From contig NZ_JAGSYB010000001.1 in assembly GCF_025685415.1 (NCBI RefSeq), positions 558,001-622,000 of the forward strand: 64,000 bases of DNA. The letters run 5' to 3'. Position 1 is the stretch's first letter. Each line of letters starts with the position of its first letter. Shown one piece after another: positions 1,268 through 20,248 of this stretch. The translations under genes and the position numbers were made by a program. Under the pieces are notes generated by a model that ran no database searches, was not told where the DNA came from, and saw only the letters and a list, made by a program, of their open reading frames with translations. The DNA is from Terriglobus aquaticus. Its GTDB lineage: Bacteria > Acidobacteriota > Terriglobia > Terriglobales > Acidobacteriaceae.

Positions 1268-1282
1268 ATGGGAGGCAGTGAA

Positions 1283-2429: not shown

Positions 2430-3917
2430 ATGACAGACAGCATTCGTTGCGTTTGGTCGGAGAGCGCTACGAGGAACCGGCGCACGAAAACACCCGGAGC
2501 CTGGCACGTACGAAGTGTTATTTCTTCGTGTGCGCTGTTGAGCGTGTTCGCGGGTTCCGGCAGTCCGATCGCGCACGCGCAAGCTCCTCCCCCGCCTTCT
2601 CCTGTACTTGCGCTCTCCGAGGTGGTTCAGTCTGCGGTGCGTGATTACCCCTTGGTGCACGTCACGCAGGAAGAACTCAACGCGTCTGCCGCCAATATTG
2701 AATTGGCGCGAACGGCCTACCTTCCACGAATCGACGGGCTGACCCAATTCAACCGCGCCACTAGGAACAACGTCTTCGGAGCGCTGCTGCCGCAAAGCAT
2801 TGTGCCTTCCATCACGGGTCCGGTACTTGGAACGAATAACGGCGGCTCGGTCTGGGGCAGTGCAACTGGATTGCTCGTTAACTGGCAGCCGTTCGACTTT
2901 GGTGTCCGCCACGCCAACGTGCAGGCTTCCCTTGCGGCGCGGGACGCGGCCGGTGCGGCGGTTCGACGCACTCAACTGGAAGTTGGTACCGCGGCGGCTG
3001 ATGCCTTTCTGACACTGATTGCAGCGCAGCAGACCGAGAAGTCTGCAACAGCGGCGGTAGACAACTGGGATGTGTTGCTGCGCAGCATCCATGCGTTGAC
3101 ATCGGCTCAACTTAGGCCAGGTGCGGACGAATCCCGGATAGAAGCTGAGCGCGCATTGGCAGGGACACAGCTCGCTTATGCGAAGCAAGCCGAAGCGACA
3201 AGCCGGGCCACCCTTGTTAAGTTCATGCCGCATGCGGACGACGGTGGAGTCGTGTTCGACGTCGCGCGTCTGTTGTCAGAGCCACCCCCGCTGGCGGACG
3301 AGGACGCGCCCTTCCAGGCGGGCCAGCATCCCATCCTGGTGCAGCAGAAAGCGGTCACTGCGCAATCGGAAGCGCAGTTGCACGCGACCGAACGCAGTTG
3401 GGTTCCGAAATTCAATTTAGAGGGTGCAGCCTTCGCTCGCGGAACGGGTGCCGAGTCGGACGGAAGGCGACTTGGGGGCATCAATGGTCTTGGTCCGACG
3501 ACAGCGAATTACGCGGTGGGGGTTAATGTCACCTTCGCATTCATGGATTTTGCCAGCATCCATGCTCATGAAGCCGCACAAGCTGCGACGGTCAAAGCCA
3601 ATAAGAACAACGAACAGCTGGCGGATAGAACCCTTCAGGAGCGGTTTGCCATCGCCCGGGCAGCGGTACGCACTGCGCGTGAGGTTGCAGCAAACACTCC
3701 GGTCGAAGTGAAAGCTGCACATACGGCCTTCGACCAAGCCCAGGCTCGCTACAAGGCAGGTCTTGCCCCGATCGATGACGTGGCGCAGGCACAACGGCTG
3801 GTAGTTCAGGCTGAGATCGATGATTCCATTGCTCGCCTGAATGTCTGGCGGGCTCTTCTTCAATTGCAAGCCTCGCGCGGGGATATTCAACCCTTCGTAC
3901 AAGCAGTCAGCAAGTGA
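2430..3917 (+). CDS. TolC-family outer-membrane efflux channel
   Basis: The protein has 495 residues from the ATG at 2430; an in-frame GTG at 2391 would add 13 residues. It has a long basic N-terminus, a hydrophobic segment (SVISSCALLSVFAG), a cleavage region near AHAQA, and then two outer-membrane-efflux repeats rich in long Ala/Gln/Glu helices. The repeat ends are typical: TAYLPRIDG in the first half, and AQARYKAGLAPIDDVAQAQ near residue 440. Family role: a trimeric channel-tunnel that passes substrates across the outer membrane for an RND pump. The pump and adaptor follow directly, with 17 bp to the RND gene. Substrate is unknown; chromate or other toxic anions are suggested only by the operon. 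Confidence 0.9.
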   Translation: MTDSIRCVWSESATRNRRTKTPGAWHVRSVISSCALLSVFAGSGSPIAHAQAPPPPSPVLALSEVVQSAVRDYPLVHVTQEELNASAANIELARTAYLPRIDGLTQFNRATRNNVFGALLPQSIVPSITGPVLGTNNGGSVWGSATGLLVNWQPFDFGVRHANVQASLAARDAAGAAVRRTQLEVGTAAADAFLTLIAAQQTEKSATAAVDNWDVLLRSIHALTSAQLRPGADESRIEAERALAGTQLAYAKQAEATSRATLVKFMPHADDGGVVFDVARLLSEPPPLADEDAPFQAGQHPILVQQKAVTAQSEAQLHATERSWVPKFNLEGAAFARGTGAESDGRRLGGINGLGPTTANYAVGVNVTFAFMDFASIHAHEAAQAATVKANKNNEQLADRTLQERFAIARAAVRTAREVAANTPVEVKAAHTAFDQAQARYKAGLAPIDDVAQAQRLVVQAEIDDSIARLNVWRALLQLQASRGDIQPFVQAVSK

Positions 3918-3934
3918 GTTCCAGGTAGGAAACG

Positions 3935-6900
3935 ATGCGTCTTGTTTTGGCAGCTTTATCTCGTCCGTTGGCTGTGATCGTCGCATTGATCGCGATCCTG
4001 GGCGGCTTTGCCCTTTCGCTGGGACGCATGCGCACCGACATCTTTCCCGAGGTCGGGAATCCGGTGATCTATGTTGCGCAGCCATACGGGGGAATGACGC
4101 CTGCCCAGATGGAGGGCTTCCTCACCTACTACTACGAGTACCACTTCCTCTACATCACCGGTATCGAATCGGTCGACAGCAAGAGTATCCAAGGCGCTGC
4201 GCTGATGAAGCTAAGCTTCCGTGAAGGAACCAACATGCAGCAGGCGATGGCTGAGACGGTAGGCTACGTCACGCGAGCCCGCGCTTTCATGCCCCCCGGC
4301 ACCGTCCCGCCGTTCATCACGCGTTTCGATCCAGGTAGCGTGGCCGTCGGTTTGTTACTCTTCACCAGCACGAACCATACCCAGGGCGAACTCCAGAACA
4401 TCGCGCTCAACCAGGTACGCCCGTTGTTTGCGACGCTGCCCGGCGTCTCTGCGCCTCCGCCCTTTGGCGGCAATCAACGGACGATCGTCGTCACGCTTGA
4501 CCCGGACAAGCTGAAGCAATACCACATCTCGCCGGAGCAGGCGATCTCCGCAGTGAGCACGGGGTCGGTGGTCGCTCCATCCGGAAACCTCTATGACGGC
4601 ACCCTGAACCGGATCGTGCGCAACAATGCGACGCTCGGGCCGGAACTGGGCGAGTTGATGAACACGCCGATCCACCCAGGATCAGGCACAAGTGTCTATC
4701 TCCGCGATATTGGAGCGGTCGACAACGGAACCGACATTGTGACGGCCTACGCCCATGTGGATGGACGGCGAACGGTCTATATTCCGGTAACGAAGCGTTC
4801 CGACGCCTCGACTCTTGCGGTCATCAGCGCGGTCAAGGCGGCTATCCCTCTTTTCAAGAAGGCAATCCCTGACGACGTGGACGTTCAGTTGGCGTTCGAT
4901 CAATCGGGGTATGTCTCTCACGCGATCAACGGCCTGGTACGCGAAGCCATCATCGGTGCGGTGCTTACAGGAATTGTGGTTTTGTTCTTCCTGCGCGACT
5001 GGCGCGGAGCCCTGATCGTAGTGGCAAATATTCCGTTTGCACTCTTCACGGCCGTCCTTTTGCTTTGGGCAACCGGGCAAACCATCAACATCATGACGCT
5101 CGGCGGTCTGGCGCTCGCCGTGGGCGTTCTCGTAGACGAAGCCACCGTGGAGATCGAAAACATCCATACGCAGCTTCTCCCGGGCGTCTCCCGAGCAAAA
5201 GCAGTTCTGGAGGCGTGCAAACGCACCGTGATTGCTCGATTGTTGTCCATGCTGTGTGTTCTGGCGGTCTTCGTTCCGTCCTTCTTCATGAAGGGTGTTG
5301 GGCGGCAGCTCTTCGTTCCTTTGTCTCTCGCGGTTGGCTTCGCAATGATCGCCTCCTACCTGCTTTCCAGCAGTCTTGTCCCGGTGTTTGGGACGTGGAT
5401 GATGAAAGAGACCCATCGGCGGGAAGAGTCGGAAGGAGCCTTCGGACGACTCCGGGCGCGATATGAGAAATTCCTGGACGCCGTTCTGAAGTTCAGGTGG
5501 CCCGTCATCCTCACCTACTTCGGAGTGTCGATAGTCGTTCTGGTGCTTGTCACACCACATCTCGGAACGGAGATATTTCCGGACGTCAATGGTCCTGTCC
5601 TGCGGATGCGTTTGAAGGCACCAGTCGGCACACGCATTGAGGAGACCGAGCCGATGATTCTCCAAGCGCTCGATCTCATTCGCAAGACCATTGGAAAGGA
5701 GAACGTGGAAATTACATCCGATTACGTCGGCGTGCAACCTTCCAGCTATCCGATCAACCTGGTGCATCTTTTCTCCAGCGGTCCCGAGGAAGCGATGGTT
5801 CAAGTCCAGTTGCGACCCGGACATCCCGACGACGAACGGTTACGGGAAGACCTGCGCTCTGCTTTCAGTAAAGAGATGCCCTCACTCCATCTGTCTTTCG
5901 AGGCAGGAGACATCGTCTCGCAGGTCATGAGCTTCGGTTCGCCCACTCCTGTGCAGATCGACGTACAAGGAGTGAACCTCGAACAGAACTACGCTCAACT
6001 TGCAAAGATAGAGGCGGAACTCCACAAATTGAGTTTTCTCCGCGATATATCCATCGTGCAGCCGCAGAAGTATCCCACCGTCGAGGTAAACATCGACCGG
6101 CAGTATGCCGGACAATTCGGGCTGACGATGGCAGACGTGACCAACTCCATGGTTGCCGCGACAGGATCGTCACGGTTTACTTCGCCGAATTATTGGCGCG
6201 ACCCGAACACCGGAAATGCTTTTCAAATTCAGGTACAAATTCCTCCGAGCCGCGCTCAGGGTATGCCGGCCTTGTCGTCTCTGCCGCTGATGCGAGATGG
6301 ACTCTCACAGCCTCAGCTCGATCAGGTCGCAAGCCTGCAGTACGGCACCATGCCGGAGATGATCGAGAGGCTCAGCGGACAGCGTGTTGTGAGCCTCACA
6401 GCCAACCTCCACGGTGTCACTCTCGGAGAAGCACAACAGAAGATAAAGGACGCACTCGCCAAAATGCCGGCACCGCCCAAGGGGTCCGTTGTCACAGTTC
6501 GGGGCGAGGTTCCAGCGCTGGAAGAGACCATCTCAGGCTTACGCGTGGGACTTTTGCTAGCGATTGCAACTATCTTTCTCCTCCTGATGGCATACTTTCA
6601 ATCCCTTCGGTTACCGTTGGCTGTCTTGAGCACTATCCCCGGAGTGCTCTGCGGCGTGGTGCTGATGCTGCTCGTTACACGAACAACCCTCAATATCCAG
6701 TCCTTTATGGGAGCGATTATGGCGGTAGGGATCTCCGTTGCCAACGCAATTCTCCTTGTGACATTTGCCGAACACGCCCGCCAGCAGGAAGGCGCGGAGG
6801 TGGCGGCGCACACAGGCGCTGTCGGTCGCCTCCGTGCGATTCTGATGACCGCCACGGCAATGATCTGCGGCATGATCCCAATGGCCATCGGATTCGGGGA

Positions 6901-7078
6901 GGGCGGCGCGCAGTCCGCCCCTCTGGCCCGCGCCGTTATCGGTGGCCTCCTCTTTTCGACGTTTGCCACATTGGCCGTGCTGCCCGCCATCTACGGGCTC
7001 CTGCAACGGCGCGCATCTGTTACTTCCAATTCCTTGAATCCTGAAGATCCCGCGAGCCGATACTATGCACAATCATAA
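3935..7078 (+). CDS. RND-family inner-membrane efflux pump
   Basis: With 1047 residues this is the usual RND length. It has an N-terminal transmembrane helix (residues 5-28), a large periplasmic loop beginning RTDIFPEVGNPV, transmembrane helices 2-6 around residues 335-490, a second periplasmic domain, and helices 8-12 at the C-terminus. The TM4 relay region reads GVLVDEATVEIEN near residue 400; the acidic pair is D-E instead of the AcrB D-D, a form common in acidobacterial HAE1-like pumps. It uses the proton gradient to drive substrate into the TolC channel through the adaptor. AGGTAGGA precedes the ATG. It overlaps the adaptor gene by 14 bp, so translation is probably coupled. Order is TolC-RND-adaptor, the reverse of many operons. 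Confidence 0.92.
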   Translation: MRLVLAALSRPLAVIVALIAILGGFALSLGRMRTDIFPEVGNPVIYVAQPYGGMTPAQMEGFLTYYYEYHFLYITGIESVDSKSIQGAALMKLSFREGTNMQQAMAETVGYVTRARAFMPPGTVPPFITRFDPGSVAVGLLLFTSTNHTQGELQNIALNQVRPLFATLPGVSAPPPFGGNQRTIVVTLDPDKLKQYHISPEQAISAVSTGSVVAPSGNLYDGTLNRIVRNNATLGPELGELMNTPIHPGSGTSVYLRDIGAVDNGTDIVTAYAHVDGRRTVYIPVTKRSDASTLAVISAVKAAIPLFKKAIPDDVDVQLAFDQSGYVSHAINGLVREAIIGAVLTGIVVLFFLRDWRGALIVVANIPFALFTAVLLLWATGQTINIMTLGGLALAVGVLVDEATVEIENIHTQLLPGVSRAKAVLEACKRTVIARLLSMLCVLAVFVPSFFMKGVGRQLFVPLSLAVGFAMIASYLLSSSLVPVFGTWMMKETHRREESEGAFGRLRARYEKFLDAVLKFRWPVILTYFGVSIVVLVLVTPHLGTEIFPDVNGPVLRMRLKAPVGTRIEETEPMILQALDLIRKTIGKENVEITSDYVGVQPSSYPINLVHLFSSGPEEAMVQVQLRPGHPDDERLREDLRSAFSKEMPSLHLSFEAGDIVSQVMSFGSPTPVQIDVQGVNLEQNYAQLAKIEAELHKLSFLRDISIVQPQKYPTVEVNIDRQYAGQFGLTMADVTNSMVAATGSSRFTSPNYWRDPNTGNAFQIQVQIPPSRAQGMPALSSLPLMRDGLSQPQLDQVASLQYGTMPEMIERLSGQRVVSLTANLHGVTLGEAQQKIKDALAKMPAPPKGSVVTVRGEVPALEETISGLRVGLLLAIATIFLLLMAYFQSLRLPLAVLSTIPGVLCGVVLMLLVTRTTLNIQSFMGAIMAVGISVANAILLVTFAEHARQQEGAEVAAHTGAVGRLRAILMTATAMICGMIPMAIGFGEGGAQSAPLARAVIGGLLFSTFATLAVLPAIYGLLQRRASVTSNSLNPEDPASRYYAQS

Positions 7079-8150
7079 GAAAATCCTTCTCATTGCTCTT
7101 GCCATCTGTGGGCAGGTGATCGCCCAGTCGCCAGCGCGTGTGGAGCTTGTGGCGGTGGAAAGCCGTAACCCTACACGAACGATCGCATTGCCCGCGGAGT
7201 TGGCACCATATTTGCAGGCTGACATTGAAGCACGGGTGCCCGGTTACATTGAACAGGTACTCGTGGATCGTGGCAGTCGCGTGCGACGCGGACAGGTTCT
7301 GGTAGAGCTATCCGCCCCGGAGATGAAGGCCCAGACAGCTGCCGCCGAAGCGAATCTTCACCAGGCCGAAGCTGACCAAAGTCAGGCGGAAGCTCAGGCA
7401 GCAGGCATTGAGAGTACGTTTGCTCGCTTGCAGGAAGCTTCAAAGACGCCAGGAGCCATAGCGGGCAACGAACTGGTTCAATCGGAGAAAGAGCGGGACG
7501 CCGCCCAATCTCTTGTGAGTAGCAGAAAGGCAGCCACTCGGGCGGCGTCCGAGCGTTTGCGCGTTGCAAAGGAGATGGAAGGTTATCTCCGCGTGACGGC
7601 GCCCTTCGATGGCACAATCACTGATCGTTTTGTGCATCCGGGCATATTGGTCCAAGGAGGTACCCACACTCCTCTGCTGAAGCTCCAACAGACCGCCCAT
7701 CTTCGCTTGACGGTCCCAGTTCCCGAGAGTTATGCCGGTCACGTTGTTTCTGGCACACCGGTAAACTTCCACGTCTCGTCACAGCCCGGCAAGACGTATT
7801 CTGCCAAGATTGCCAGAATCTCTGGCGCTCTGGATGCACAGAGCAGAACGATGACAGTCGAACTTGACGCCTACAACAAGGACGGCAGCCTTGCACCCGG
7901 GATGTATCCGACTGTCGATTGGCCGGTCAGTTCGGCGGAGCCCCTCCTGCTCGTTCCTGCAACCAGCGTTGTCTCGACCACCGAGCGAACTTTCATCATC
8001 ACCCCACTCAATGGACACGCTCACTGGGTCAACGTGCGCAAAGGCGCAGCTTTTGGAGATCAGGTGGCGATACGTGGCGAGATCAAACAGGGGGACAAGG
8101 TTGTAAAACGAGCATCGGATGACCTACGTGAGGGTACGCCTCTTCCGTAG
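7065..8150 (+). CDS. RND efflux periplasmic adaptor (membrane fusion protein)
   Basis: The protein has 361 residues, a signal peptide ([17 protein letters not shown]), a split barrel-sandwich/lipoyl domain ([19 protein letters not shown] and [17 protein letters not shown]), and a coiled-coil hairpin of roughly residues 90-165 rich in A, E and Q. A beta-barrel and a membrane-proximal domain follow. It bridges the RND pump and the TolC channel. There is no CxxC or His-rich metal-binding N-terminal domain as in CusB-type adaptors, so nothing in the sequence points to copper or silver. The gene starts inside the RND gene's 3' end and is followed 54 bp later by chrB. Confidence 0.9.
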
Positions 8151-8204
8151 ATATCGGAGTTGAACTGCGGGAATTGCACAACGGAACGACAACTTTTGAA
8201 TTCC

Positions 8205-9134
8205 ATGAAGAAAATCAATGAGACAAACTCGGCGCCGTGGCTCCTGTTGATCTTCACCTTGCCCGGGAACAAGGCAAGCGCGAGGGTCGGCATCTGGAGA
8301 AAGCTGCAGCGATATGGAACGCTTCAGCTGCGAAACTCTGGCTACCTATTGCCAAATACGCCGACAAATCAGGAGCGCTTCGCTTGGCTGGCGACCTCAA
8401 TTCGTGCTTCCAAGGGTGAGGCCTCGGTGCTTCAAGTCTACACCGTTGATTATCCTCCCGTAGACAAGCTTCACGATCTTTTCCGTGAAGAACGAAGACC
8501 CGATTACTCAGGATTAATCCAGGAGGTGCAAAAGCTTGACCCGTCAGGTCCGGGCTTTCCCAATCAACTTGCAAAGTTGAAACGGCGGTTCGATGAAATT
8601 AGCGAGATCGACTTCTTTCATTCTCCTCTGAGAGCCAACGCCGAAGAGGTTCTTTATAAGGCGGAACATCCGGTAGCCACCCAGGTGAAGGTGCCGAAAG
8701 GAAAGCTCTCAAAGGGGGCCTATCAGAAGCGTGCCTGGATTACGAGGCCTCGGCCTGGGATTGACCGCGTGTCCTCTGCGTGGCTCATCCAACGTTTCAT
8801 TGATCCGAAAGCTACGTTCGTGTTTGGAAATGAACCGGCGAGCCACCCGAAAGCTGTCCCGTTCGACATGTATGAGTCTGGCGGCTTTGGCCACGAAGGA
8901 GAGAACTGCACTTTCGAGACTTTGTGCCTTCGCTTTGGAATTCGCGACAAAACAGTTCACCGCATTGGACAAGCTATCCACGATGCCGACTTCGATGACA
9001 TCAAGTTTGGTCGGACAGAAGGCATCACCATCAACCAAGTTCTGAAGGGGTGGGCCAAGCAGGGCATCCCGGATGACGAACTGCTGCGCCGAGGAATGGA
9101 CCTTATCGAAGGGCTCTATCACTCGATTGCATAG
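8205..9134 (+). CDS. chrB: ChrB-family chromate resistance protein
   Basis: The protein has 309 residues from the ATG at 8205; an in-frame TTG at 8160 exists but the 15 extra residues look unstructured. The N-terminal domain starts PWLLLIFTLPGNKASARVGIW, typical of ChrB. The C-terminal ChrB domain has ITRPRPGIDRVSSAWLI, FGHEGENCTFETLC and IHDADFDD, clustering His, Glu, Asp and Cys residues. ChrB homologues are reported as chromate-responsive regulators or chromate-processing proteins next to chrA. The position between an efflux system and a DUF1259-ChrA pair supports a role in chromate resistance. The Shine-Dalgarno is weak at either start. Confidence in the family is high, in the exact biochemical role low. 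Confidence 0.88.
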   Translation: MKKINETNSAPWLLLIFTLPGNKASARVGIWRKLQRYGTLQLRNSGYLLPNTPTNQERFAWLATSIRASKGEASVLQVYTVDYPPVDKLHDLFREERRPDYSGLIQEVQKLDPSGPGFPNQLAKLKRRFDEISEIDFFHSPLRANAEEVLYKAEHPVATQVKVPKGKLSKGAYQKRAWITRPRPGIDRVSSAWLIQRFIDPKATFVFGNEPASHPKAVPFDMYESGGFGHEGENCTFETLCLRFGIRDKTVHRIGQAIHDADFDDIKFGRTEGITINQVLKGWAKQGIPDDELLRRGMDLIEGLYHSIA

Positions 9135-9149
9135 AAATAAGGGAGAACA

Positions 9150-10064
9150 ATGAGAAACCAAATCGTATATTCCGTTGCGCTGTGTGCACTCGCCTGTTGC
9201 CTTACCTCTGCATGGGCTCAGGCTGATCCGAATGCGGCATGGAAGCCTGTGGACGCGGCACTCGGCCGGTCTGGTCAGATGCAGCCAGGAGATGTATACA
9301 AATTTGCCCTTCCGCGTAGGGACATGAAGGTTGTGAAAGATGGGGTGACCATCGCCCCCGGCCTCGCGCTGGGATCGTGGATTGCCTTCAAGAAAATGGG
9401 CAATGAAGCTATGGTCATGGGCGACCTCGTTCTTGCCGACGACGAGATTGAACCCGTCATGCTGAAGCTTCAGCAGAACGGCATCGAGCAGACATCGATC
9501 CATAATCATCTCTTGGGAGAAAGCCCTCGTGTGATCTACATGCACATCGCAGGGCATGGTGACCCGGTCGTATTAGCGCGTTCGCTTGCTTCCGCACTGG
9601 CTTTGACCAAGACACCCTTTCCCCCAGCCACGACTCCTCCCGCAGCCGCGCAACCAACGATTGATCTAAAAACGGCAGAGGTCGAGCAAGCCCTTGGCTA
9701 TTCCGGTAAGGTCAATGGAGGCATACTGCAATTCTCTGTTCCTCGCATCGAGAAGATCAGCGATAACGGAATGGAAGTTCCCCCCGCCATGGGTACTGCG
9801 ACTGCGATCAACTTCCAACCTACGGGAGAGGGTAAGGCTGCCATCGCAGGCGACTTCGTCCTGCTCACCGCCGAAGTCAATCCGGTCATTCGCGCTCTGA
9901 GGACGCACGGCATTGAGGTCGAGGCAGTGCACAATCACATGCTTTTCGATCAACCTCATCTCATTTTCATGCATTTCTGGGCGAATGATGACGCCGTCAA
10001 GCTGGCGCAGGGCCTTAGGGCCGCACTTAACGAAACCAGTTCGCAAAAGCCACAAATCAAATGA
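9150..10064 (+). CDS. Exported two-repeat DUF1259 (LppY/LpqO-like) protein
   Basis: The protein has 304 residues with a signal peptide (MRNQIVYSVALCALACCLTSAWAQA) and AGGGAG 5 bases before the ATG. It contains two DUF1259 repeats, about residues 30-155 and 175-300. Each ends in a histidine motif: IHNHLLGESPRVIYMH near 115 and VHNHMLFDQPHLIFMH near 260. The spacing HNH...P...MH looks like a metal site, but no function is established for the family. It lies 15 bp after chrB and 6 bp before chrA, so it should be co-expressed with chromate transport. It could be a periplasmic metal or oxyanion-binding partner; that is inference. Confidence 0.85.
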   Translation: MRNQIVYSVALCALACCLTSAWAQADPNAAWKPVDAALGRSGQMQPGDVYKFALPRRDMKVVKDGVTIAPGLALGSWIAFKKMGNEAMVMGDLVLADDEIEPVMLKLQQNGIEQTSIHNHLLGESPRVIYMHIAGHGDPVVLARSLASALALTKTPFPPATTPPAAAQPTIDLKTAEVEQALGYSGKVNGGILQFSVPRIEKISDNGMEVPPAMGTATAINFQPTGEGKAAIAGDFVLLTAEVNPVIRALRTHGIEVEAVHNHMLFDQPHLIFMHFWANDDAVKLAQGLRAALNETSSQKPQIK

Positions 10065-10070
10065 GGCCAC

Positions 10071-11231
10071 ATGGTCGATCGCGCCAAACTCGCAGATGAG
10101 CAGAAGGCGCCCCTTGGGGCCTTTGTGCTCTATTTCCTTCGCCTCGGCGCACTCGGATTTGGCGGGCCGATCGCGTTGGCCGGTCGGATGGAATCCGAGT
10201 TGGTTCAGGAGCGAGGTTGGATTCAGCGGGAGGACTATCTTGAAGGTCTCGCTTTCGCACAACTCGCCCCCGGACCGCTCGCTGCGCAACTCGCTATGTA
10301 CCTCGGCTATGTGCGTGCAGGTGTGCTCGGTGCGACTGGGGTGGCTATCACCTTCATCGCGCCTTCGTTCCTTATGGTGCTAGCCATATCGGTGCTCTAT
10401 GTGCGCTATGACGGCTTGAAGTGGATGCAGGCGCTTTTTTATGGAATCGGAGCGGCGGTCATCGGCATCATCCTCCGTTCGACTATCAAACTCGGAGGCG
10501 TCACTTTAAAGAGAGATCCATTGTTATGGGCAATCTTTCTTGTGTTGGCAGCTTCGACCGCCTATACGGGAAGAGAAATCGTCTGGCTCTTTCTTTTGGC
10601 GGGTATCGTTTCGCTCGGCGTAAAAACCACGTCTTCGCGCACTGGCTCTGTGGCGATCGCAATCTGGCCCGCGACGCTAGGGCTCTCGGAGCCAGCGAGC
10701 AAGCACTGGGCATTGTGCCTGTTCTTCCTCAAATCGAGCCTCTTCGTCTTCGGCAGCGGTCTAGCGATTGTGCCTTTCCTGCACGGCGGTGTCGTTGATT
10801 CTCACCATTGGCTCAACGAGCATCAGTTTCTAGATGCCATCGCAGTTGCGATGATTACTCCTGGTCCCGTCGTTATTACGGTTGCCTTCATTGGATACCT
10901 TGCCGACGGCCTGACCGGTGCTGTATTGGCCGGCTTGGGAGTGTTCCTGCCCGTCTATTTGATGGTTGTGATTGTTGCACCGTTCTACCGTCGGCTCTCC
11001 CGCAATGACGGAATCAAAGCCTTCGTAAGCGGGGTAACCGCCGCTGCCACCGGAGCGATTGCCGGCGCGGTCTACATTCTGGCGCGTCACTCTATAAAAG
11101 ATGTTTGGACCGCTGCCATCGCGTGTCTCGCCTTCATCGTACTGTGGCGTTGGAAAGTGCCGGAACCTGTCATTGTGGCTGGCTCTGGAATCGTGGGGCT
11201 GCTCTTATATACCTCATTCGGAGGCAGGTGA
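10071..11231 (+). CDS. chrA: ChrA chromate efflux transporter (two-domain CHR family)
   Basis: The protein has 386 residues, the normal length for the long two-domain CHR family, and about ten to twelve hydrophobic segments. The first half contains RLGALGFGGPIAL and AQLAPGPLAAQLA; the second repeats this with FLKSSLFVFGSGLAIVPFL and MITPGPVVITVAFIGY. These duplicated G-F-G/P-G-P signatures mark ChrA. It exports chromate from the cytoplasm, driven by the proton gradient in characterised members. ATG starts 6 bp after the DUF1259 gene and the stop is 1 bp before the next DUF1259 ATG. The tight packing with chrB supports the call. Confidence 0.93.
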   Translation: MVDRAKLADEQKAPLGAFVLYFLRLGALGFGGPIALAGRMESELVQERGWIQREDYLEGLAFAQLAPGPLAAQLAMYLGYVRAGVLGATGVAITFIAPSFLMVLAISVLYVRYDGLKWMQALFYGIGAAVIGIILRSTIKLGGVTLKRDPLLWAIFLVLAASTAYTGREIVWLFLLAGIVSLGVKTTSSRTGSVAIAIWPATLGLSEPASKHWALCLFFLKSSLFVFGSGLAIVPFLHGGVVDSHHWLNEHQFLDAIAVAMITPGPVVITVAFIGYLADGLTGAVLAGLGVFLPVYLMVVIVAPFYRRLSRNDGIKAFVSGVTAAATGAIAGAVYILARHSIKDVWTAAIACLAFIVLWRWKVPEPVIVAGSGIVGLLLYTSFGGR

Positions 11232-11232
11232 A

Positions 11233-12306
11233 ATGCACTCAAACACATCATTACTCGTTGTCGAGTTCACAGCGGACATGACGACAACAATCTCTCGTAT
11301 TCAATCGGCCGGGTCCAACCGGATTTGTCAAAACACACCGGCTGCGCCTCAGACACGAGCGCATCGTCCGAAAAGACACTTCGACTGGCATCTGTCCGCT
11401 TCGCTACTTGCCGTTGGAGTGGCGACGCAGTTGATGGCCGAGGTCCCGAAGCAGGCCCGCGTGCTAATCGATCAAACCATAGGCAGTCCGGGAACATACA
11501 TACCCGAAGAAGGAGTTTATAAGGTTGTATTGCCGGAAACCAAAGCCACGGTGGTGCAGGATTATCAAACACTTTCTCCCAACTTTGGGCTGAATTCCTG
11601 GGTTGCTTTTACACCTGCTGTCCATCATGAAGCCCTCCTTGTCGGTCAGATTCTCCTTCTCGAGGACGAAGTGAATCCCGTGATGACCGCTGCTCTGAGT
11701 GCCGGGTTGGAAATCACCGGACTTGCAGACTCATCCACTTTTGACGGACCTCGATTGAAAACCCTCGATGTAACAGGTGTCGGAACCTATCAGAGCCTCG
11801 CGTCAGCCTTTCGCAAGGCGCTCGATGAGATACGACATACCCGTGTTGACGTCATTCGCCGTGGGGGGAGCGTTGCGCCACCAATGCTCTCACTCGACAG
11901 TTCTATCGATTTTCATCCGCTGGATGCGGTTCTCTCGATGAAAGGTTCGATAAGCGAGGGTGTGTATAGGGCGGCGATCGGTCGACGGGCGCTTTCCCAC
12001 GGTGAAACGATCGGAAGAGAGATGGGGATTACGAGCTGGATATCGCTCTCGGGCACCGATGAACGGGCATTCGCTCAGGGAGAGTTCGTCGCGACTTCGG
12101 GCGAACTTCAAAAGCTCCTAAGAGCAGTTTGTTCCAAGAATATGAAAATCGTTTCTATCCGAAACCATATGGTTGGTGAGCATCCTCAACTTATCTTCGT
12201 GCACTTCTGGGATCAAGGAAGAGCGATTGAAATCGTTAAGGCCGTACGATATGCCCTGAACGTTCAAGTAGGGATAACCACGGCCCCTTCCTTGGTTCGT
12301 GAATGA
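11233..12306 (+). CDS. Second DUF1259 protein, diverged
   Basis: The protein has 357 residues from the ATG at 11233, preceded by GAGGCAGG inside the chrA stop region. It has a long basic N-terminal tail followed by one hydrophobic stretch (HLSASLLAVGVATQL), either a late signal sequence or an anchor. Two DUF1259 repeats follow. The first repeat has lost the histidine motif (LADSSTFDGPRLKTLDV where the paralogue has HNH...MH). The second keeps a degenerate version (IRNHMVGEHPQLIFVHFW). It is probably a diverged duplicate of the gene before chrA, retained in the same operon. Loss of the putative metal ligands in one half suggests an altered or structural role. Confidence 0.8.
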   Translation: MHSNTSLLVVEFTADMTTTISRIQSAGSNRICQNTPAAPQTRAHRPKRHFDWHLSASLLAVGVATQLMAEVPKQARVLIDQTIGSPGTYIPEEGVYKVVLPETKATVVQDYQTLSPNFGLNSWVAFTPAVHHEALLVGQILLLEDEVNPVMTAALSAGLEITGLADSSTFDGPRLKTLDVTGVGTYQSLASAFRKALDEIRHTRVDVIRRGGSVAPPMLSLDSSIDFHPLDAVLSMKGSISEGVYRAAIGRRALSHGETIGREMGITSWISLSGTDERAFAQGEFVATSGELQKLLRAVCSKNMKIVSIRNHMVGEHPQLIFVHFWDQGRAIEIVKAVRYALNVQVGITTAPSLVRE

Positions 12307-12817
12307 GCTCGGCAACAGGCAAGGGTGGTCGTACGGAAAAGTGCCTTGATTGTATTCGACGCGACGGAGCAACCGACATGACTCCCCGCAATAACCAAAT
12401 GCAAGGCAACGATTTCGTGCAGAGCAATTTGTGCCATCGTCAGCTACGTTGTTTCGACTGCCATGAGGTCCATACCGACGCCGTCTCCAATCTGTTCGTC
12501 TCCGGGAAGAAGCTCCGCTTGTCCTGCCATACCAAAGAAAACGCTGCAGGACTGAAGGGCACCGCCTCCGAACATACCCATTACGCGGAAGGAAACGCCG
12601 GGAGCCAATACACCGCTTGCCCTATGCGGCGGATCGAACAGACGATCAAAGACAACTACGTCACGGCACACACATACCGGTTCATCACTCCAACAGAGAC
12701 GGAACATTCAGGAATTTAGATTCCTGCACATCTTGCCATGCCGATAAAACCACCGAGTGGGCGAACAGTGAGTTGAGAAACTGGTCTTCCACCTTTCCTT
12801 GGCGCGTTGGACAATGA
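12303..12817 (+). pseudogene. Decayed multihaem cytochrome c fragment
   Basis: The first frame (12303-12719) keeps one intact haem site, CFDCH, in the context HRQLRCFDCHEVH. Other sites are ruined by point changes: CLDCIR, RLSCH where CLSCH is expected, and ACPMRRIEQT where ACHMP is usual. After HTYRFITPTETEHSGI the frame ends at TAG, and the natural continuation DSCTSCHADKTTEWANSELRNW is in another frame up to 12817. Both a frameshift and ligand loss are therefore visible. The family is the periplasmic multihaem cytochromes with repeated CxxCH, often followed by TPRs. Only the middle of such a protein is present; the apparent ATGA overlap with the DUF1259 gene is probably accidental. Confidence 0.82.
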
Positions 12818-12895
12818 GGTCATCGACTCAACAAGCCAATTTCATTTGGACGATGGTGCTCTCAAGAACCTGTCGCCATGCTCAGGTCTTCGCCA

Positions 12896-15776
12896 TCAAA
12901 ACTCGTAATCCAAGGAGAATTGAATCCTCCGCGCAGTCAATGTTGAGATCGGGCGACCGAAGCCTGATTGCGATGAAACAGCAGAGCCGAACGCGCTGTT
13001 CAAGATGCCGACGTTCTCATGGTTCAGCAGGTTGAACGACTCCGCAACTACATCTAAGTGGCCCTTCCTGAAAGGGATCATCTTTAGGGCACGCAGATCG
13101 AAGTCGATGATCCCACTTCCACGAAGAGCATTCCGGCCATACCCGGCCGGCCGGAATGCAAAGGGGTAGATATGCTCGCGATTGCTGTCGAGACCGACGA
13201 TAGGATCATCGCGAAATCCGGTTGAAATGCTCAGGATCGGAGCGAACTCGAAGCCTGTCAACAGACGCATAAGGCGGCCCGGGTTCTCGTTAGCCACAGC
13301 GTCTGCCGGATCGTTCAGGTCCGGCCCAATCAACCATAGTCCGCTCAACGTCAGACGGTGACGCTGATCCTGAAGTGACGGCCCATACTCTCCCCGGAGG
13401 TTATAAGGATTGTGGGGCTGCTCTGTGTCCGTCGAGGCATTGTCGAGGGTCTTCGAGAACGTGTATCCCACGAGTAATTGGAAGTCGTCAGTGAACTGCC
13501 GATTCAGGGTCACTGTCGCACCGTTGTAATTCGAATGTGCGGATGTTGCGAACGCGTGGATTGCGTCATACGCCGGATTCAGGCGAATCGGCGAGAACAC
13601 CAGGTTTCCCAATTGTTGCGGGGTGGGAGAACTGACATCAAGAGCAGCGGCGTTCTGTGCGGTAAGAATCACCGGAGCCGCAAGGTTAGTGTTGATCGTT
13701 CGTCCAAGATGAACTCCGTTGACGAACTGATACTCAGCCTTGAGAGTTGTCTGAAGAGGAAGTGCATACTCGACACTCAGGGATGCCACTTCGCTGTAGG
13801 GATTTTGGAAACTTTGCGATGCTCTCCAAACGCTTGGTGCGACGGATGGCATCGGCAGGAGCGTCGATCCACTAGCCCGGTATGCAGACGTAGCCGCCGT
13901 ATCCTCCACGATCTGGGTGAACCCATTGTGCCCGTCAAGTTCCAGGAGCCGGTTGACCGTTGAGACCAGAAAACGGTCCTCAAATATCCCAAATCCTGAG
14001 CGAATGACCAATGACTTTCGAGGCGTCCACGCGATCCCGACTCTGGGGCTGAGATTGAGTGCGTGCTGAGGCAAAGACGCGGGGAGGTAATTGTCTTTGT
14101 ACCGAACACCGAAATCGACCGCCAAGTTTTGAGCCGGAGTCCAATGATCCTGCGCGTAAGCCTTCAACCGGTACTCCGTGAAGTTGACGTCTGGATTGGA
14201 GTAGAACGAGTGGATAAAGAAATCCGGGGCAGCAGCCGAGAATGCGTTCAAGCTGCTGAACACGAAAAGGCCGCGGCTCCCATCCGTGATGGCACTCCGC
14301 AGGGAGGTTCGGTCGAGACCTCCGCCCACCTGCACCATGTGTTTGTGGAGCTGCAGGATGGCAGTCTCTTCAAACTCGACATGCGTCTCAAACCGTCGGT
14401 TGTTTCCGGCATAGGGCGTCCCAAAGAGAGCGACGCCGGGTATGAGGACGCCCGGAAACTTAGTTGAGCCTGTACGTTCGACTGCGCGACGTTGAGACAC
14501 CTCGAAACTCGCTTTGTTAAGGAATGACTTAGACAACGTTGAAGTCAGTGTTCCATTCAGGCTGTTATCCGCCGTGAACGCTGAACCACGCGCGCAGACA
14601 TCGGCCAGCTCGTCCGTGTTGAACGCGTCAGAACCGTTACGGCTATTGGTGAAGGCATAGCGCAACATGCCCGACTGTTGATCGGTGAAGACACGATCGA
14701 GCCTTCCTGACAGCTCGGTCTCCTGATCGGTGGTCGGGAAAAGGGCGGTTTTAAGGATGAGTCCTTGTACCGGGCCCGGCTGCTGAAGAGCCGCGTTGAT
14801 CTGACTCACGACTGTGGGCTTGAGATCGTTGGCATCCTCTCCGTGAGCGATCTCCTGTTCAGCGGCGACGTAGTAGAACGTCCTGTCCCGTTGAAGTGCA
14901 CCACCTAACGCAACGCCTGCACGGAATCGATTCTCATCCGGCTTGTACGGGTAGATGCCCAGCGGAGGTGTGCCATTCAGAGCTCCGTTCTGCTCAAAGA
15001 TGAATTCGTCCCCGTGGACTTGGTTTTGACCTTCTCGCGTCTGTACGTCGATGGAACCGCCAGCCCCTCCACCTGACTCGGCCGCAAATCCGTGGTTGAC
15101 GATCTGGAAGTCGCTGATTGCCTCTGGGGACAGCTGCGTTCGGCTGCCGCCCGTGAATTCATCGTCGTTCCGGAACTCCGTCAAGATGGACGGAATTACT
15201 GGAGGGGCGCAGTCCTCCAAAGCCGAAGCCTCCGCTCGACTGTGCCAGGGATTGTTGCGAAAATACTGGATTCGAGGGTGTGGCTTGCGGCGACAGCAGG
15301 ACGAAGGTCAGATAGTTCCGACTCGGGATCGGCAACTCTTCGACCCGATCCCGGTCGATATTGATCACGGACGATGTCTGCGAAGCGTCGAGCGGCGATT
15401 GCTCGGCGCTGACGTTTACTTGCTGTGTCGTGCCGGCGACCTTGAGCGTGAAGGTGAGTAGCGTGTTTCGTCCTACGGCGACCGATATGTCGGATTGCTG
15501 GGCTGAGGCAAATCCAGGCGCGGCAACCTGAACAGTGTATGTGCCGCTCGGCACGTCGATCAGCGAGAAGTCTCCCTGTGTTCCCGACGATTGCACCCGT
15601 TTGAAACCGTCTGCTCCCTGAAGGGACACAGTGGCACCGGCCACAAAACTATGATCCACGGTATAGACCTGACCTGAAACGGTTCCGCTCTGGCCAAGTT
15701 GAGCTGACGCAGGGACCGTGAGAGTGAAAACGACGCAAATAACTCGTTGAACAGCTGAAAAACGTAGAAAGGACAT
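12896..15776 (-). pseudogene. Oar-like TonB-dependent receptor, broken by a +1 frameshift
   Basis: The ATG at 15776 starts a signal peptide (SFLRFSAVQRVICVVFTLTVPASAQ), then a carboxypeptidase-regulatory beta-sandwich (SGQVYTVDHSFVAGATVSLQ) and the start of the plug (RVEELPIPSRNYLTFVLLSP). Reading stops at VHLDGVPERR near 15159. The continuation, DEFTGGSRTQLSPEAISDFQ, is in the next frame and runs to the C-terminal strand FSLDYEF at 12896. Removing one base at about 15172-15178 joins the parts into ~960 residues, the normal length. Such receptors take up siderophores or large organics with TonB-ExbBD energy. Either a true pseudogene or a sequencing error; the decayed cytochrome next door favours real decay. 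Confidence 0.82.
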
Positions 15777-15887
15777 GGAATCTCCGGGTGAGCAAATACG
15801 TGGGTCCGCGCGATCAGTGCGCGGAAACGACGCTCCACGAGCGACAGCAAGGGCCGTCGCCAAGCAGAGTTGCGAACACCAGATCCA

Positions 15888-16196
15888 TCAAATTCGGAGA
15901 GGAGGAGGAAACTGCGGAGGGATAAAGGCGATCTTCGAAAAGAGCCGGTCAATGATTCGAAACGTTTGCTCCCACCGTGGCAGCAGTGTTGTTATCCACG
16001 AAAGACGCCCGGACGATGCGGCAATGAGCCTGCATACTAGCAGGACAAGACAAAGAACTAGTACCAGGAAGAAGACGCCCATCTCCGTGTCATTGCCGAG
16101 GCCAGGTGCGTCCCAGCGGTCGAAGAACTCGAACAATGGGATGACGAACGCTGCCAGAAGCAGCATCATCGTTCCGAATTGCATAAGGCGACGCAC
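15888..16196 (-). CDS. Small two-helix membrane protein
   Basis: The protein has 102 residues, with hydrophobic segments at about residues 8-25 (MMLLLAAFVIPLFEFF) and 40-60 (VFFLVLVLCLVLLVCRLIAA). A basic and aromatic tail (LPRWEQTFRIIDRLF) follows. The family is not recognised. It lies 111 bp upstream of the broken TonB receptor on the same strand and may share its transcript. Nothing in the sequence gives a function. Confidence 0.6.
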   Translation of the reverse strand: MRRLMQFGTMMLLLAAFVIPLFEFFDRWDAPGLGNDTEMGVFFLVLVLCLVLLVCRLIAASSGRLSWITTLLPRWEQTFRIIDRLFSKIAFIPPQFPPPLRI

Positions 16197-16291
16197 TCTC
16201 AGATTGTACGAGGTGGAAGACTCAGTCCGAGGTGCCCGTTCAACAGGTCGGAATCGTATATCGCAGATTTGACAGCGGCTCTAAAGCCGGT

Positions 16292-17407
16292 TCAGTCTTC
16301 TGAATCAACGTTCTTTTTCGCGGGGCTTGACGCGATCGGTCCAGATTCCTCTCTGACCTTTGCCAAAAGAAAATCTCTCAGGGCGGGAGTTTTCGCGGCC
16401 TCATCGCTCATGACGATCCGCCACTCATCCCCTCGCCGCGCAAACGCCATCCCGTACAGAGCCATCATCTCGCAGAGCAAATCGTATATCGGTGCAAACA
16501 CTTCGAGTGAATCCCACCCAAACTCGGAGAGCCAAAGTTCCTGCAACACTCTTTCCAATCGGGAGATCAGTTCCGCAATAGGGGGATTCTTTGTCAACAA
16601 CTGTCGAGCGCCCGGGGCTTGCTCCATTCCGTGCATCTCCAACCCGTGAAGGTGCCCGAGCAGGTAACCTGCGCAAATGAAGGTGTCGCCAAAGACCTGT
16701 TGGATTTCTCGAAAGGTTTCCGCCGCATTCCCTCCATCCCGGAATCGCTCAATCCACTTCTGGGAAGAAGAGAGACTCTGTTGGAGCGCTACGCAGAATG
16801 CCCGGTCGAAGTCCTCCATCGCCTCGGCCCGAAACTGCGCCGAGGACCGGCAGGCCGCGTATTCACTCCAGACATCCAGCGACTTGATGAAGGACTGGCG
16901 GGAGCGATCTCCGCAGTCAAGCGCATGACCGTATACATCAGGAAAGGTCTTGTAGAGGAGCCCTTCATGTTCGACGTGCGCCGCTTCGTGGGCGATACAC
17001 CCGCAAGCCAGCGCCTGCTCTTCGGGCTTTGTAGATAAAGTCATCAGACCGAGTCCAGGTCGCAGAACGATGTGAAAGCGGAACTCGTCTCCACGCTGTA
17101 CAGCAACCGTCCGAGCAAGTTCCATTGTCTCGGGTTGCTCGGTCATCTCAAGAGGGATGGCTCCGGCGGGCAAATCCTGCAAATCGCAAGCAGCCTTCCG
17201 TGCGTCGCTCGTAACGGTGACGCCATCGAGAGAGCGCAAGTCCATACCCGACAGTGCAAGCGCATACAGCGACTGCTCGATCGAGGATGCGATTGCATCC
17301 CGAATGTCCGATGAGTCATAGCAATCGATTGATATGGTGCACTTCGGGGGGAGCGGAAGGCTTCCTTCTTCATGATGGTGAAAATCTAGGAGGTAGTTAC
17401 CGCCCAT
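16292..17407 (-). CDS. Uncharacterised protein with HExxH zincin-like motif
   Basis: The protein has 371 residues from the ATG at 17407; a TTG at 17422 is an alternative. The central segment contains IAHEAAHVEHE (His at about 140 and 144, followed by H and E), an HExxH-type zinc-protease signature in a short helix. The rest is alpha-helical and Trp/Cys-containing with no signal peptide or membrane segment, so a cytoplasmic metallopeptidase-like protein is likely. It does not look like an ImmA/IrrE protein because no Xre domain is adjacent. It is isolated, 684 bp from the HxlR gene and 95 bp from the membrane-protein gene. Function unknown; activity is inferred from one motif only. Confidence 0.65.
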   Translation of the reverse strand: MGGNYLLDFHHHEEGSLPLPPKCTISIDCYDSSDIRDAIASSIEQSLYALALSGMDLRSLDGVTVTSDARKAACDLQDLPAGAIPLEMTEQPETMELARTVAVQRGDEFRFHIVLRPGLGLMTLSTKPEEQALACGCIAHEAAHVEHEGLLYKTFPDVYGHALDCGDRSRQSFIKSLDVWSEYAACRSSAQFRAEAMEDFDRAFCVALQQSLSSSQKWIERFRDGGNAAETFREIQQVFGDTFICAGYLLGHLHGLEMHGMEQAPGARQLLTKNPPIAELISRLERVLQELWLSEFGWDSLEVFAPIYDLLCEMMALYGMAFARRGDEWRIVMSDEAAKTPALRDFLLAKVREESGPIASSPAKKNVDSED

Positions 17408-18111
17408 CCTCAAGCCTCGCAACTGTCCGCGTAAAAGCGTATCGGAAGAGGATGTCGCTCGCGCGGATAAAACTCGGGAATTCGATACGTGTTGCGGATC
17501 GATCGAGTCTTGCCTGTATCTGTCCCGAGATCAACGGAGGCCCATCCAACTCATTCGGGGAAGAAACGTCTGCGGTGCGCCCCCGCAAACTGCCCTATAA
17601 ACCCGTGATCGGGGAGTTGGAAAACCGAACAGAGTACGGTTCCTGAGACCTTTAGCTTTAGGGGCCTGGACATACGTCTCAGGCTCCCCGACCGCAAAGG
17701 CAAGGGAATCCATCGCGCTCATAAGCGCGATTTACTCTGTTAGGGGTTTCCACACCCCAGGACGGCGCGTGACCGTCCCGACTCCATCATCGAACATCCC
17801 ATTGGAGTTGGCAATTCGATCGGGACGCCGAAGTAAAACCCACTCCCTCAGCGCCTGCCAGTTTTCTACTTCTAAGGGTTTAGTCCCCGTTGTGTCTTAC
17901 TGAACTTTCACCCGCTATACGTGTGTTTCATCGAATCGGGGAGGTTTGGGAACTTCGAATGTTCCGCGGCACTGCAACCGGTTTTCATGGCGCGAACGTC
18001 TCTGTCAGTAGGGCAACGGATCTGCAGATTAGTTTTTATGCACCCAAAGACTTGCCCAGTGATGAAGGGCGACGACACCTGAAAGACAGGGTCATACGCC
18101 GAGGGCCACGC
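17408..18111. other. Long intergenic region with one perfect hairpin
   Basis: No convincing gene is seen in these ~700 bp; the short frames present lack Shine-Dalgarno sites and recognisable composition. A perfect 8-bp stem, ATCGCGCT-CATA-AGCGCGAT, sits at 17712-17731 without a T-tract on either side. The region just before 18112 should carry the HxlR promoter. Confidence 0.5.
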
Positions 18112-18471
18112 ATGAGCCACACTCCAGAGGATTACTGCCGCTCGTGTACCGATACCGTTCACCTCGTCCAAGGCAAATGGAAGATCCACATCCTTTGCGC
18201 TATACGGACCGGTCCCGTCCGCCTAGGGCAACTGAGGCGCGAACTTCGGCACGCCTCAAAGAAAGTGCTGGCGGAGAATTTGCGGGAGTTGGAAGACGCT
18301 GGGTTAGTGCTTCGAAGGGATCTGGGCGGGTCAGTCCGCCATGTCGAATACGATTTCACCGAGGATATGCGGCCTCAGATTCACTCCATATTGGATCACC
18401 TTGCGGATTTTGGCGAAGCGCTCGGCTCATCCCGCCTAAATGCAACTAGCGCTGTTCGAACGAGAAGCTGA
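18112..18471 (+). CDS. HxlR-family winged-helix regulator
   Basis: The protein has 119 residues. The ATG at 18112 is chosen over an upstream in-frame start because GAGGG lies 7 bases before it and the HxlR core begins here. The N-terminus has CRSCTDTVHLVQGKWKIHIL, including the Cys and the GKW typical of HxlR. The recognition helix and wing follow (LGQLRRELRHASKKVLAENLRELEDAGLVLRRD). Members sense electrophiles or redox state through the N-terminal Cys; two Cys (CRSC) are present here. Its target is unclear, since neighbours are a toxin-antitoxin pair on the other strand (8 bp to the PIN stop). Confidence 0.88.
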   Translation: MSHTPEDYCRSCTDTVHLVQGKWKIHILCAIRTGPVRLGQLRRELRHASKKVLAENLRELEDAGLVLRRDLGGSVRHVEYDFTEDMRPQIHSILDHLADFGEALGSSRLNATSAVRTRS

Positions 18472-18478
18472 TGTTTGG

Positions 18479-19060
18479 TCAGAGGTCGGACAATCCATCT
18501 CTGATATGCTCGCGCATCGCGTCCACGCTCTTGCACAGACCTTGCTGTCGAAGGTCATCAAGGTACTCGTCTCGATTTTTGGGTGGGTTTTTGAGACTAG
18601 CGCGGTGGGCTATTGCTGCTTCTAGGACGAGACCGGGGAAAGCCTCAAACAGGGCCAGAACAAAGTCATCCGGATGCTGGGCTTCGATGTCGAAAGCGGC
18701 AAGGACATCAGATGGAAAGTCCGCCAGGTTCAGCGTGACGATCAAGCTCGAATCGGAGTGAATTGCGGCGGCGAGGACGTGCCGATCGTCGCGATCCGAC
18801 AGGCACAAGGTTTCAGTGTGGTGTTCGTATCCGAATACCATGGCATCCGGCAACGCTTGCTCCATCAGGCGCCGCGTGCGCTCCAACTTGTCGAGCGTGA
18901 TGTCGGGTCGATTCTCAAGGAGATTGCACATCCATTCCTCATGCACTTCGGCAGACCAGTGGGCACGAAAGGTTCCCGTCAATGCCAGGTACATGAGGAA
19001 GTTCCGCAGCCCCGCAGGGTAGAGGACATTGGCGTCGAAGAAGGCCCCGAGTGTCGCCAC
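18479..19060 (-). CDS. PIN-domain toxin (VapC-like ribonuclease)
   Basis: The protein has 193 residues. Acidic active-site positions are visible: the first Asp in GAFFDANVLYP, an acidic cluster in SAEVHEEW, and DRDDRHVLAAAI before the final strand SLIVTLNLADF. Length is above the ~130 of classic VapC because of a C-terminal helical extension (LVLEAAIAHRASLKNPPK). Family members cleave RNA in a metal-dependent way. It follows the antitoxin gene by 3 bp. The pair sits just inside the proposed island end, consistent with a maintenance role. Confidence 0.85.
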   Translation of the reverse strand: MATLGAFFDANVLYPAGLRNFLMYLALTGTFRAHWSAEVHEEWMCNLLENRPDITLDKLERTRRLMEQALPDAMVFGYEHHTETLCLSDRDDRHVLAAAIHSDSSLIVTLNLADFPSDVLAAFDIEAQHPDDFVLALFEAFPGLVLEAAIAHRASLKNPPKNRDEYLDDLRQQGLCKSVDAMREHIRDGLSDL

Positions 19061-19063
19061 GAA

Positions 19064-19513
19064 TCAGATCCCGATCTCCTGGTCGTAAGCAACAAGTTCA
19101 CTGAGAGCGGCAAGCCGCTCGGCGTGGGCTTTCCGTTTGTACGCCATGAGGGACTCGAAACGCACCCTGCGATGGGTGCCAACTTTGCGGTATTCGATCT
19201 TGCCTTCGTCCAACATTTGGATCAGGGAAGGGCGCGAGATGCTGAGCATGTCGGCTGCCTCCTGGGTCGTCAATTCGGCGTGGACCGGGATAACCGTGAC
19301 CGTGTTTCCGCGTCCCATTTCGTCGAGGATTCCGACCAGCATCTTGAGGGCGGAAGCGGGGAGAACGACCGTCTCATCTTCGGGTGCTCCGACGACCCGG
19401 AGGCGAAGCGGGGTTTTCGAGCGAAGCCGGGAGGAGAGTAGACGGCTGGTTTCCTCGGCCTGCTTGGCCTCGGACGGCGTGGGTAAAATCTGGGTCAGAA
19501 GGGCTTCCGGCAC
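19064..19513 (-). CDS. Antitoxin with excisionase-type helix-turn-helix
   Basis: The protein has 149 residues. The middle contains LTTQEAADMLSISRPSLIQM and KVGTHRRVRFESLMAYK, a MerR/excisionase-like winged helix that binds DNA. The region before it has ETVVLPASALKMLVGILDEM, common in antitoxins paired with PIN_3 toxins. It precedes the PIN gene, should autorepress the operon, and binds the toxin through its C-terminal helix (AERLAALSELVAYDQEI). Its promoter must lie in the 237 bp between 19513 and the tRNA half. Confidence 0.82.
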   Translation of the reverse strand: MPEALLTQILPTPSEAKQAEETSRLLSSRLRSKTPLRLRVVGAPEDETVVLPASALKMLVGILDEMGRGNTVTVIPVHAELTTQEAADMLSISRPSLIQMLDEGKIEYRKVGTHRRVRFESLMAYKRKAHAERLAALSELVAYDQEIGI

Positions 19514-19648
19514 GGTTTTAACCTCGTCTTATTATGGCTTCTATTCGTAGCAAACGCAACCAATCGAAGCATTCGCGGAGCGTTTTTGACCACAGCTCTG
19601 CCGCGTTGAAGCAGTGGTTTAGGGCAGAGGTCGTGGGTTTGGACCCAC

Positions 19649-19670
19649 GGGTCCGATAAGGGTCCAATAA
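19649..19670 (+). repeat. Tandem 11-bp arm repeats of a putative attachment site
   Basis: Two abutting 11-mers, GGGTCCGATAA and GGGTCCAATAA, lie 80 bp before the tRNA-Asp half. A near-identical pair occurs at 59559-59580 on the other strand, 79 bp before the tRNA-Glu half (19 of 22 positions equal). Directly upstream (19634-19650) is a degenerate T-arm-like GTGGGTTTGGACCCAC. The pattern fits integrase arm-binding sites inside an integrated element. Confidence 0.7.
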
Positions 19671-19750
19671 CTGTTCCTTGCTGTTCCCAATAGCGCTAAA
19701 ACGGGCCATCCGCTACGCATTGTTTCAGCTAGTTACAGTTTTCCGGTTCA

Positions 19751-19795
19751 CTGTCACGGCAGAGGTCGCGGGTTCGAGCCCCGTCGTCCCCGCCA
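19751..19795 (+). other. tRNA-Asp(GTC) 3' half, putative att site at island 1 right end
   Basis: The sequence starts with the anticodon loop CTGTCAC, continues GGCAG (3' anticodon strand), AGGTC, a T-arm GCGGG-TTCGAGC-CCCGT, acceptor strand CGTCCCC, G and encoded CCA. The 5' half is absent: the bases before the loop (GTTCA) cannot pair with GGCAG and no D-arm is present. A break exactly at the anticodon loop is typical for tyrosine-recombinase integration into tRNA genes. The element should lie to the left, and an intact tRNA-Asp is expected at its other end, outside the window. Confidence 0.82.
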
Positions 19796-20248
19796 CTAAG
19801 TCACTCGGAACGAGTAGGTTAGTGGCACCCCAGCAAGAAAGCCAAATACTTCAACATCACAGAACATCATCCACTTTTGAATGCCGGAAGTGTGCAAGCC
19901 GACGAGCTCTGTGACGTAAGCACGTTGGGCGGCGGGCCGGATGATCTTCTCCATCATCATGTTGGACCGCAGGGCTTCGTTCCGTTCGGGAGGAAGCTTC
20001 GAGCCTTACCGATGCTTCGAATGTGCGGCAGCAGGGAACCCGTGTTGGGAACTGGCTCATGAAGGAGCAGGCAAGGGGACTGCTTGCTGTTCCCGATCGC
20101 GCGGCCGTGAAGGGCTAGCGAAGGCTACGCGATTCTCTCCCTCCTTGTCGGCTACGCTCTGCGATCGCGATGAATGACATGATGGACGCCCGCGCTTCGG
20201 AAACAGAGAAGTATACCGTGGAGCAGCAGCACCCCTCCCCCGCGGTTT
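19796..20248. other. Intergenic region, no gene seen
   Basis: About 450 bp just outside the proposed island end. Short frames on both strands lack start signals and look like random GC-rich translation. No terminator or RNA is recognised. Confidence 0.5.

Follow-up and report, generated by a model that had tools for sequence, protein, structure and literature searches.

A displaced tRNA-Asp 3' part as the predicted attR of a 65,756-bp ICE in an Acidobacteriaceae chromosome

Sequence comparison indicates that the window, the whole 64-kb stretch of DNA that we analysed, almost certainly contains the attR, or right junction, of a 65,756-bp integrative and conjugative element (ICE), which has inserted into the tRNA-Asp(GTC) gene on a chromosome of the Acidobacteriaceae. 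An attR of an ICE in tRNA-Asp is a standard, classic arrangement, and the element belongs to a known kind. At window 19751-19795, the sequence CTGTCACGGCAGAGGTCGCGGGTTCGAGCCCCGTCGTCCCCGCCA runs from the 7-nt anticodon loop to CCA with the 5' half absent, and ARAGORN detected no tRNA in the 64-kb window. An intact tRNA-Asp(GTC) lies on the forward strand of the same chromosome (G000:C1:511963-512039), and its last 45 bases are those of the fragment. The two copies (C1:511995-512039 and C1:577751-577795) match without a mismatch, share their orientation and stand 65,756 bp apart. As a 28-mer from this repeat is found at just two sites in the 4.16-Mb genome, even with up to three mismatches allowed, a chance origin of the repeat is excluded. 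We infer that the crossover lies within the anticodon loop, at 19751-19757. The displaced 3' fragment and the restored intact tRNA mark the insertion as a tRNA-targeted genomic island, and GC content is 56.2% within the element versus 60.1% in sampled flanks.

These results bear out much of a preliminary description of this DNA. It had read the fragment as tRNA-Asp sequence from the anticodon loop to CCA without a 5' half, and had predicted both an intact tRNA-Asp(GTC) with its final ~45 bases repeated at the junction and an adjacent tyrosine integrase gene; the integrase gene is found right next to the intact tRNA and runs the other way. The same description had the element lie left of 19,751 and include the chromate operon, which does fall inside it, within a 23-kb cargo block absent from a sister ICE. 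The coordinates of the features are collected in the table below.

Table. Features of the predicted ICE and its right junction. Coordinates with the prefix C1 are chromosomal; all others are positions in the window.
Feature	Position	Strand	Evidence or remark
Tyrosine integrase, 399 aa, directly adjoining intact tRNA-Asp, opposite strand	C1:512110-513309	-	PF00589, 92 bits
virB2-virB11 genes	C1:514977-524384		
TrwB/VirD4-type coupling protein	C1:527207-529303		
MobF relaxase	C1:529307-532087		TrwC 9.8e-87; NCBIfam MobF 228 bits vs cut-off 100
Defence block	C1:532-545 kb		DrmD-like helicase, ATPase, type III methyltransferase, 895-aa open frame, fused SIR2-Argonaute
parB	C1:546977-548662		
Cargo block, 23 kb	1..16397 plus C1:551365-558000	.	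alignment gap vs G250, C1:551364 to 574398
Right 19.8 kb of the 65,756-bp ICE	1..19795	.	remaining 46 kb left of window, G000:C1:511995-558000
Outer-membrane efflux protein, AcrB/CzcA-like RND pump, HlyD-type adaptor	2391..8150	+	
Chromate operon: ChrB-like protein, DUF1259 protein, ChrA chromate transporter	8160..11231	+	TIGR00937 above cut-off
PIN-domain protein, likely toxin	18479..19060	-	
HTH_17 / excisionase-family DNA-binding protein; probably an antitoxin or an accessory factor	19064..19513	-	
Degenerate inverted half-site pair with 7-bp spacer, CAGCTCTGCC-GCGTTGA-AGCAGTGGTT, putative pseudo-core site	19593..19619	.	5 mismatches
Target half-site GGCAGAGGTC, exact copy with which the T-arm-like copy begins	19623..19632	+	
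Tandem 11-bp repeats, putative right arm-type sites: GGGTCCGATAA (19649-19659), GGGTCCAATAA (19660-19670)	19649..19670	+	
GTTAC, 14 bp ahead of the repeated core, conserved across most related right ends	19732..19736	+	
attR core, 45-bp exact copy of tRNA-Asp 3' part	19751..19795	+	repeat search, sister-ICE alignment
Former tRNA-Asp 3' hairpin (pre-insertion neighbour)	19792..19826	+	-19.5 kcal/mol, z -5.6

The limits of the element are corroborated by a 48,628-bp sister ICE in a genome from another genus of the same family (G250), which is bounded by the same repeats. Its DNA alignment with our element starts at 511995, where the repeat begins, and stops at 577799, four bases beyond the right repeat. 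The integrases of the two are 98-99% identical, their VirB, coupling and relaxase proteins 80-99%, and the first 10 kb of the sister ICE about 90% at the DNA level. The sister ICE lacks C1:551365-574397, chromate operon included, and has no alignable counterpart of the defence block at 532-545 kb. Relatives of the same genus tell of insertion at the same place: two genomes (G095 and G180) agree with each other to the left and to the right of tRNA-Asp, and a third (G031) follows both on the left to within about 15 bp of the tRNA 3' end, where an integrase remnant takes over. This pattern shows insertion at the tRNA 3' end in same-genus relatives. An empty tRNA-Asp joining the two flanks of G000 itself was not found among the same-genus genomes, compared by DNA and by protein, in which those flanks are not conserved; the exact limits shared with the sister ICE and the breaks seen in same-genus relatives serve in its place.

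The catalytic R-K-H-R-H-Y set of a tyrosine recombinase is complete in the integrase, and R218, K252, H324, R327, H350 and Y360 are the same in all 18 sequences aligned. A three-strand sheet is predicted at the N-terminus, and the protein scores under the curated cut-offs of named NCBIfam recombinases. Two more integrases of the same family, suggesting further islands, are encoded in the genome at C1:637499-638680 (54% identical), about 15 kb past the right end of the window, and at C1:1870760-1871881 (45% identical).

Lambda-type integrases combine an arm-binding domain, an N-terminal three-strand sheet, with a catalytic domain, and have repeats in both arms. The integrase described here is like them in its predicted sheet, catalytic domain and repeats in both arms; it is unlike them in that the arm repeats are tandem 11-mers and the right arm adds core-like inverted pairs with 7-bp spacers. 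The tandem 11-bp repeats, noted upstream of the tRNA fragment in the preliminary description, are indeed present at 19649-19670, and a left-end counterpart, GGGTCCGATTAGGGTCCATTA, lies inside C1:512040-512130. Many related Acidobacteriaceae elements have tandem repeats of the form GGGNNCRATAA within both ends. At right ends these stand near -102 and -91 relative to the crossover; at left ends they fall in the interval that separates the integrase gene from the tRNA. Bases 4-5 mostly agree between the copies in one element and differ from element to element. The 11-bp repeats are most likely the arm sites of the integrase. Of 29 non-redundant elements, 26 show an association of these variable bases with integrase residue 39, a position on strand three of the predicted sheet: Q goes with CA, R with TC, Y with TG or TT, and H with TA. 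The three misfits weaken the idea of a strict recognition code, and in a larger set the residue ranked second to a C-terminal column. Tree-based tests, which found only three to four independent pairs, gave p values of 0.25 or more; the apparent tracking of arm-repeat bases by residue 39 is suggestive, not significant.

The preliminary description had also noted a degenerate T-arm-like copy upstream of the fragment. Such a copy is present at 19623-19646 (83% over 24 nt), but it does not represent a decayed tRNA; it is one part of a recurrent right-arm array made up of target half-site copies and arm repeats. A search of window 18400-20300 with Rfam at a permissive threshold gave no useful match. 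The motif GGCAGAGGTC, which is the target half-site adjoining the crossover, occurs within 400 bp ahead of the crossover, at most one mismatch allowed, in 38 of 41 right ends, with 97 matches against about 2 in shuffled sequence, counts that are not independent, as the right ends compared are related by descent. At the other end, the 300 bp nearest the integrase gene held no copy in any of 17 elements. Direct copies have flanks that do not run into the anticodon loop. Inverted pairs of the form GACCTCTGCC-N-GGCAGAGGTC, counted when they had four mismatches or fewer, show a 7-bp spacer in 27 cases and no other single spacer in more than 4; shuffled sequences gave none at 7. They are found in 18 of 37 de-duplicated right ends (L154, L043 and L136 are examples at Asp right ends), and the favoured spacer is as long as the anticodon loop. 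Our element has one exact direct copy and one degenerate pair, the latter better preserved in relatives. Versions of the half-site that correspond to the element's own target are seen in 3 of 10 Val ends and in few Glu ends, lending weak support to the view that these are integrase sites.

We regard the GGCAGAGGTC copies in the right arm as probably accessory core-type integrase sites. A more specific and tentative proposal, possible rather than likely, is that the single copies and the inverted pairs, whose 7-bp spacer does not match the loop, are pseudo-core sites that load integrase dimers without recombining and regulate synapsis or direction, and that attachment sites and integrase (residue 39) co-evolve across the Asp, Val and Glu elements. 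Somewhat less probable is that the copies and inverted pairs are operators for a regulator, such as the HTH protein encoded at the right end, and have nothing to do with integrase binding. Perfect GACCTCTGCC-N7-GGCAGAGGTC palindromes away from tRNA-Asp in some genomes, one of which, in L138, precedes an open reading frame, speak for operators and are the chief caution on the integrase reading, whereas the identity of the motif with the target half-site beside the crossover, the spacer that resembles the anticodon loop, and the few Val and Glu elements with their own target's version all speak for the integrase. The HTH/PIN pair is missing from other right ends, which sets back the idea that the copies are operators of the HTH gene in particular; that gene is in both sister ICEs and is not general at the right ends of related elements. 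We know of no description of extra target half-site copies in the right arm of an island, from a search that was not exhaustive, and the half-site array may be a new variant of attachment site.

In the mechanism that we propose, the integrase, through its N-terminal arm-binding sheet and C-terminal tyrosine recombinase domain, would bind the core half-sites around the anticodon loop together with the 11-bp arm repeats on both flanks, and strand exchange would proceed across the 7-bp loop. The element would then rebuild the 3' half of the tRNA and supply a new 3' hairpin, the old 3' half being pushed to 19751-19795. Excision, as the reverse reaction, would yield a circle to be transferred by MobF, the coupling protein and the VirB channel. 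The element-borne hairpin now downstream of tRNA-Asp at the left end is predicted at -11.5 kcal/mol (z -4.5), and among 18 elements this region is variable in sequence and similar in layout. We infer that the hairpins serve 3' processing or termination.

The make-up of the element is that of an ICE: it has a site-specific integrase, att repeats that match exactly at its two ends, a relaxase, and a coupling protein and VirB4 together with mating-pair genes. The left 20 kb hold a LysR regulator and VirB2, VirB4, VirB9, VirB10, VirB6, VirB8 and VirB11, followed by SSB, a RepB-type primase, the TrwB coupling protein and the MobF relaxase-helicase; VirB1, VirB3 and VirB7 were not identified among the element's genes by profile searches. 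Beyond the defence block come ArdC, DUF6908, ParB and SRAP, then the cargo of TonB-like receptors, a two-component system, RND efflux and chrB/chrA. The ICE is apparently self-transmissible. The alternative, that it is an immobile island or decayed ICE that entered once by conjugation and has lost excision, we consider unlikely: long open frames encode the integrase, the relaxase, the coupling protein and most of the VirB proteins, the element is exact at either end, and the sister ICE with about 90% identity over its first 10 kb resides in another genus. Mobility is nevertheless read from sequence, and related elements are eroded in three genomes (G031, G148 and G290). A third element, of 44.6 kb in G290, shows few detected transfer or ICE genes, and immobile copies may therefore exist.

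Where a locus offers enough flank, an integrase with 75% identity or more to this one is almost always 64-139 bp away from tRNA-Asp. In the exceptions, L052 and L056, the integrase abuts a partial copy of tRNA-Asp, a sign of tandem elements. Tandem tRNA-Asp elements, each closing with a tRNA 3' copy, were seen at G141 C12:1084616-1134990 and G194 C1:2856542-2871689 as well as in these two loci. Integrases at roughly 43-58% identity stand beside tRNA-Glu, tRNA-Val or tRNA-Ala, and some at tRNA-Asp. Right ends of the Asp type, with GTTAC 14 bp ahead of the anticodon-loop repeat, occur in 53 of 398 genomes; under a slightly looser pattern, Glu ends occur in 26 of 300 genomes and Val ends in 8 of 300. 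Since tRNA-Asp is a hot spot where elements stand in tandem, it might be suggested that the GGCAGAGGTC copies are old, non-functional att sites left by earlier integrations, but this is quite doubtful, since the half-site alone is kept and the crossover bases CTGTCA are not, many copies are inverted, their spacing is regular, and the 300 bp on the integrase flank held none in 17 elements. A literature search, not exhaustive, turned up no paper describing these elements.

In common with MobF and VirB-type (MPF_T-like) ICEs, the element has an end-located integrase, exact att repeats, MobF/TrwC and TrwB, as well as VirB2/4/6/8/9/10/11, SSB, ParB and ArdC; it differs from the known ones in its Acidobacteriaceae backbone and in an integrase under the named NCBIfam recombinase cut-offs. 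Like the tRNA-gene islands catalogued by Islander (PMC4383910), it has an intact tRNA at one end, a displaced 3' fragment at the other and the integrase by the intact gene; unlike them, its right arm bears extra copies of the target half-site. Exact limits are now set for a conjugative element that carries Argonaute/restriction-type defence and metal resistance and has a close sister in another genus. Acidobacteriaceae are abundant in soil and genetic tools for them are few. Integration vectors could naturally draw on the integrase and its attachment sites, and on the related sets for tRNA-Asp, tRNA-Glu and tRNA-Val. The recurrent half-site copies raise a concrete and testable question, namely how assembly or restraint of integrases on attP comes about.

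Several further observations concern the element and its relatives. A DrmD-like SNF2 helicase, an AAA ATPase, a type III methyltransferase and the 895-aa open frame form one run at C1:532130-542007, likely a defence cassette, in which we take the open frame adjoining the methyltransferase to be a putative restriction partner. The fused SIR2-Argonaute (1049 aa; G000:C1:542057-545206, L005 2057-5206, reverse strand) is spanned over nearly its full length by the PADLOC pAgo model. Two proteins of similar size, 375 and 376 aa, without a Pfam or PADLOC match, are encoded at C1:548893-550020 and window 16292-17422, and the latter is retained by both sister ICEs. Finally, perfect GACCTCTGCC-GAACCCC-GGCAGAGGTC palindromes, on either strand and away from tRNA-Asp, lie at L236 2638-2664, L237 2687-2713 and L138 1296-1322; those of L138 and L236 share flanking sequence.
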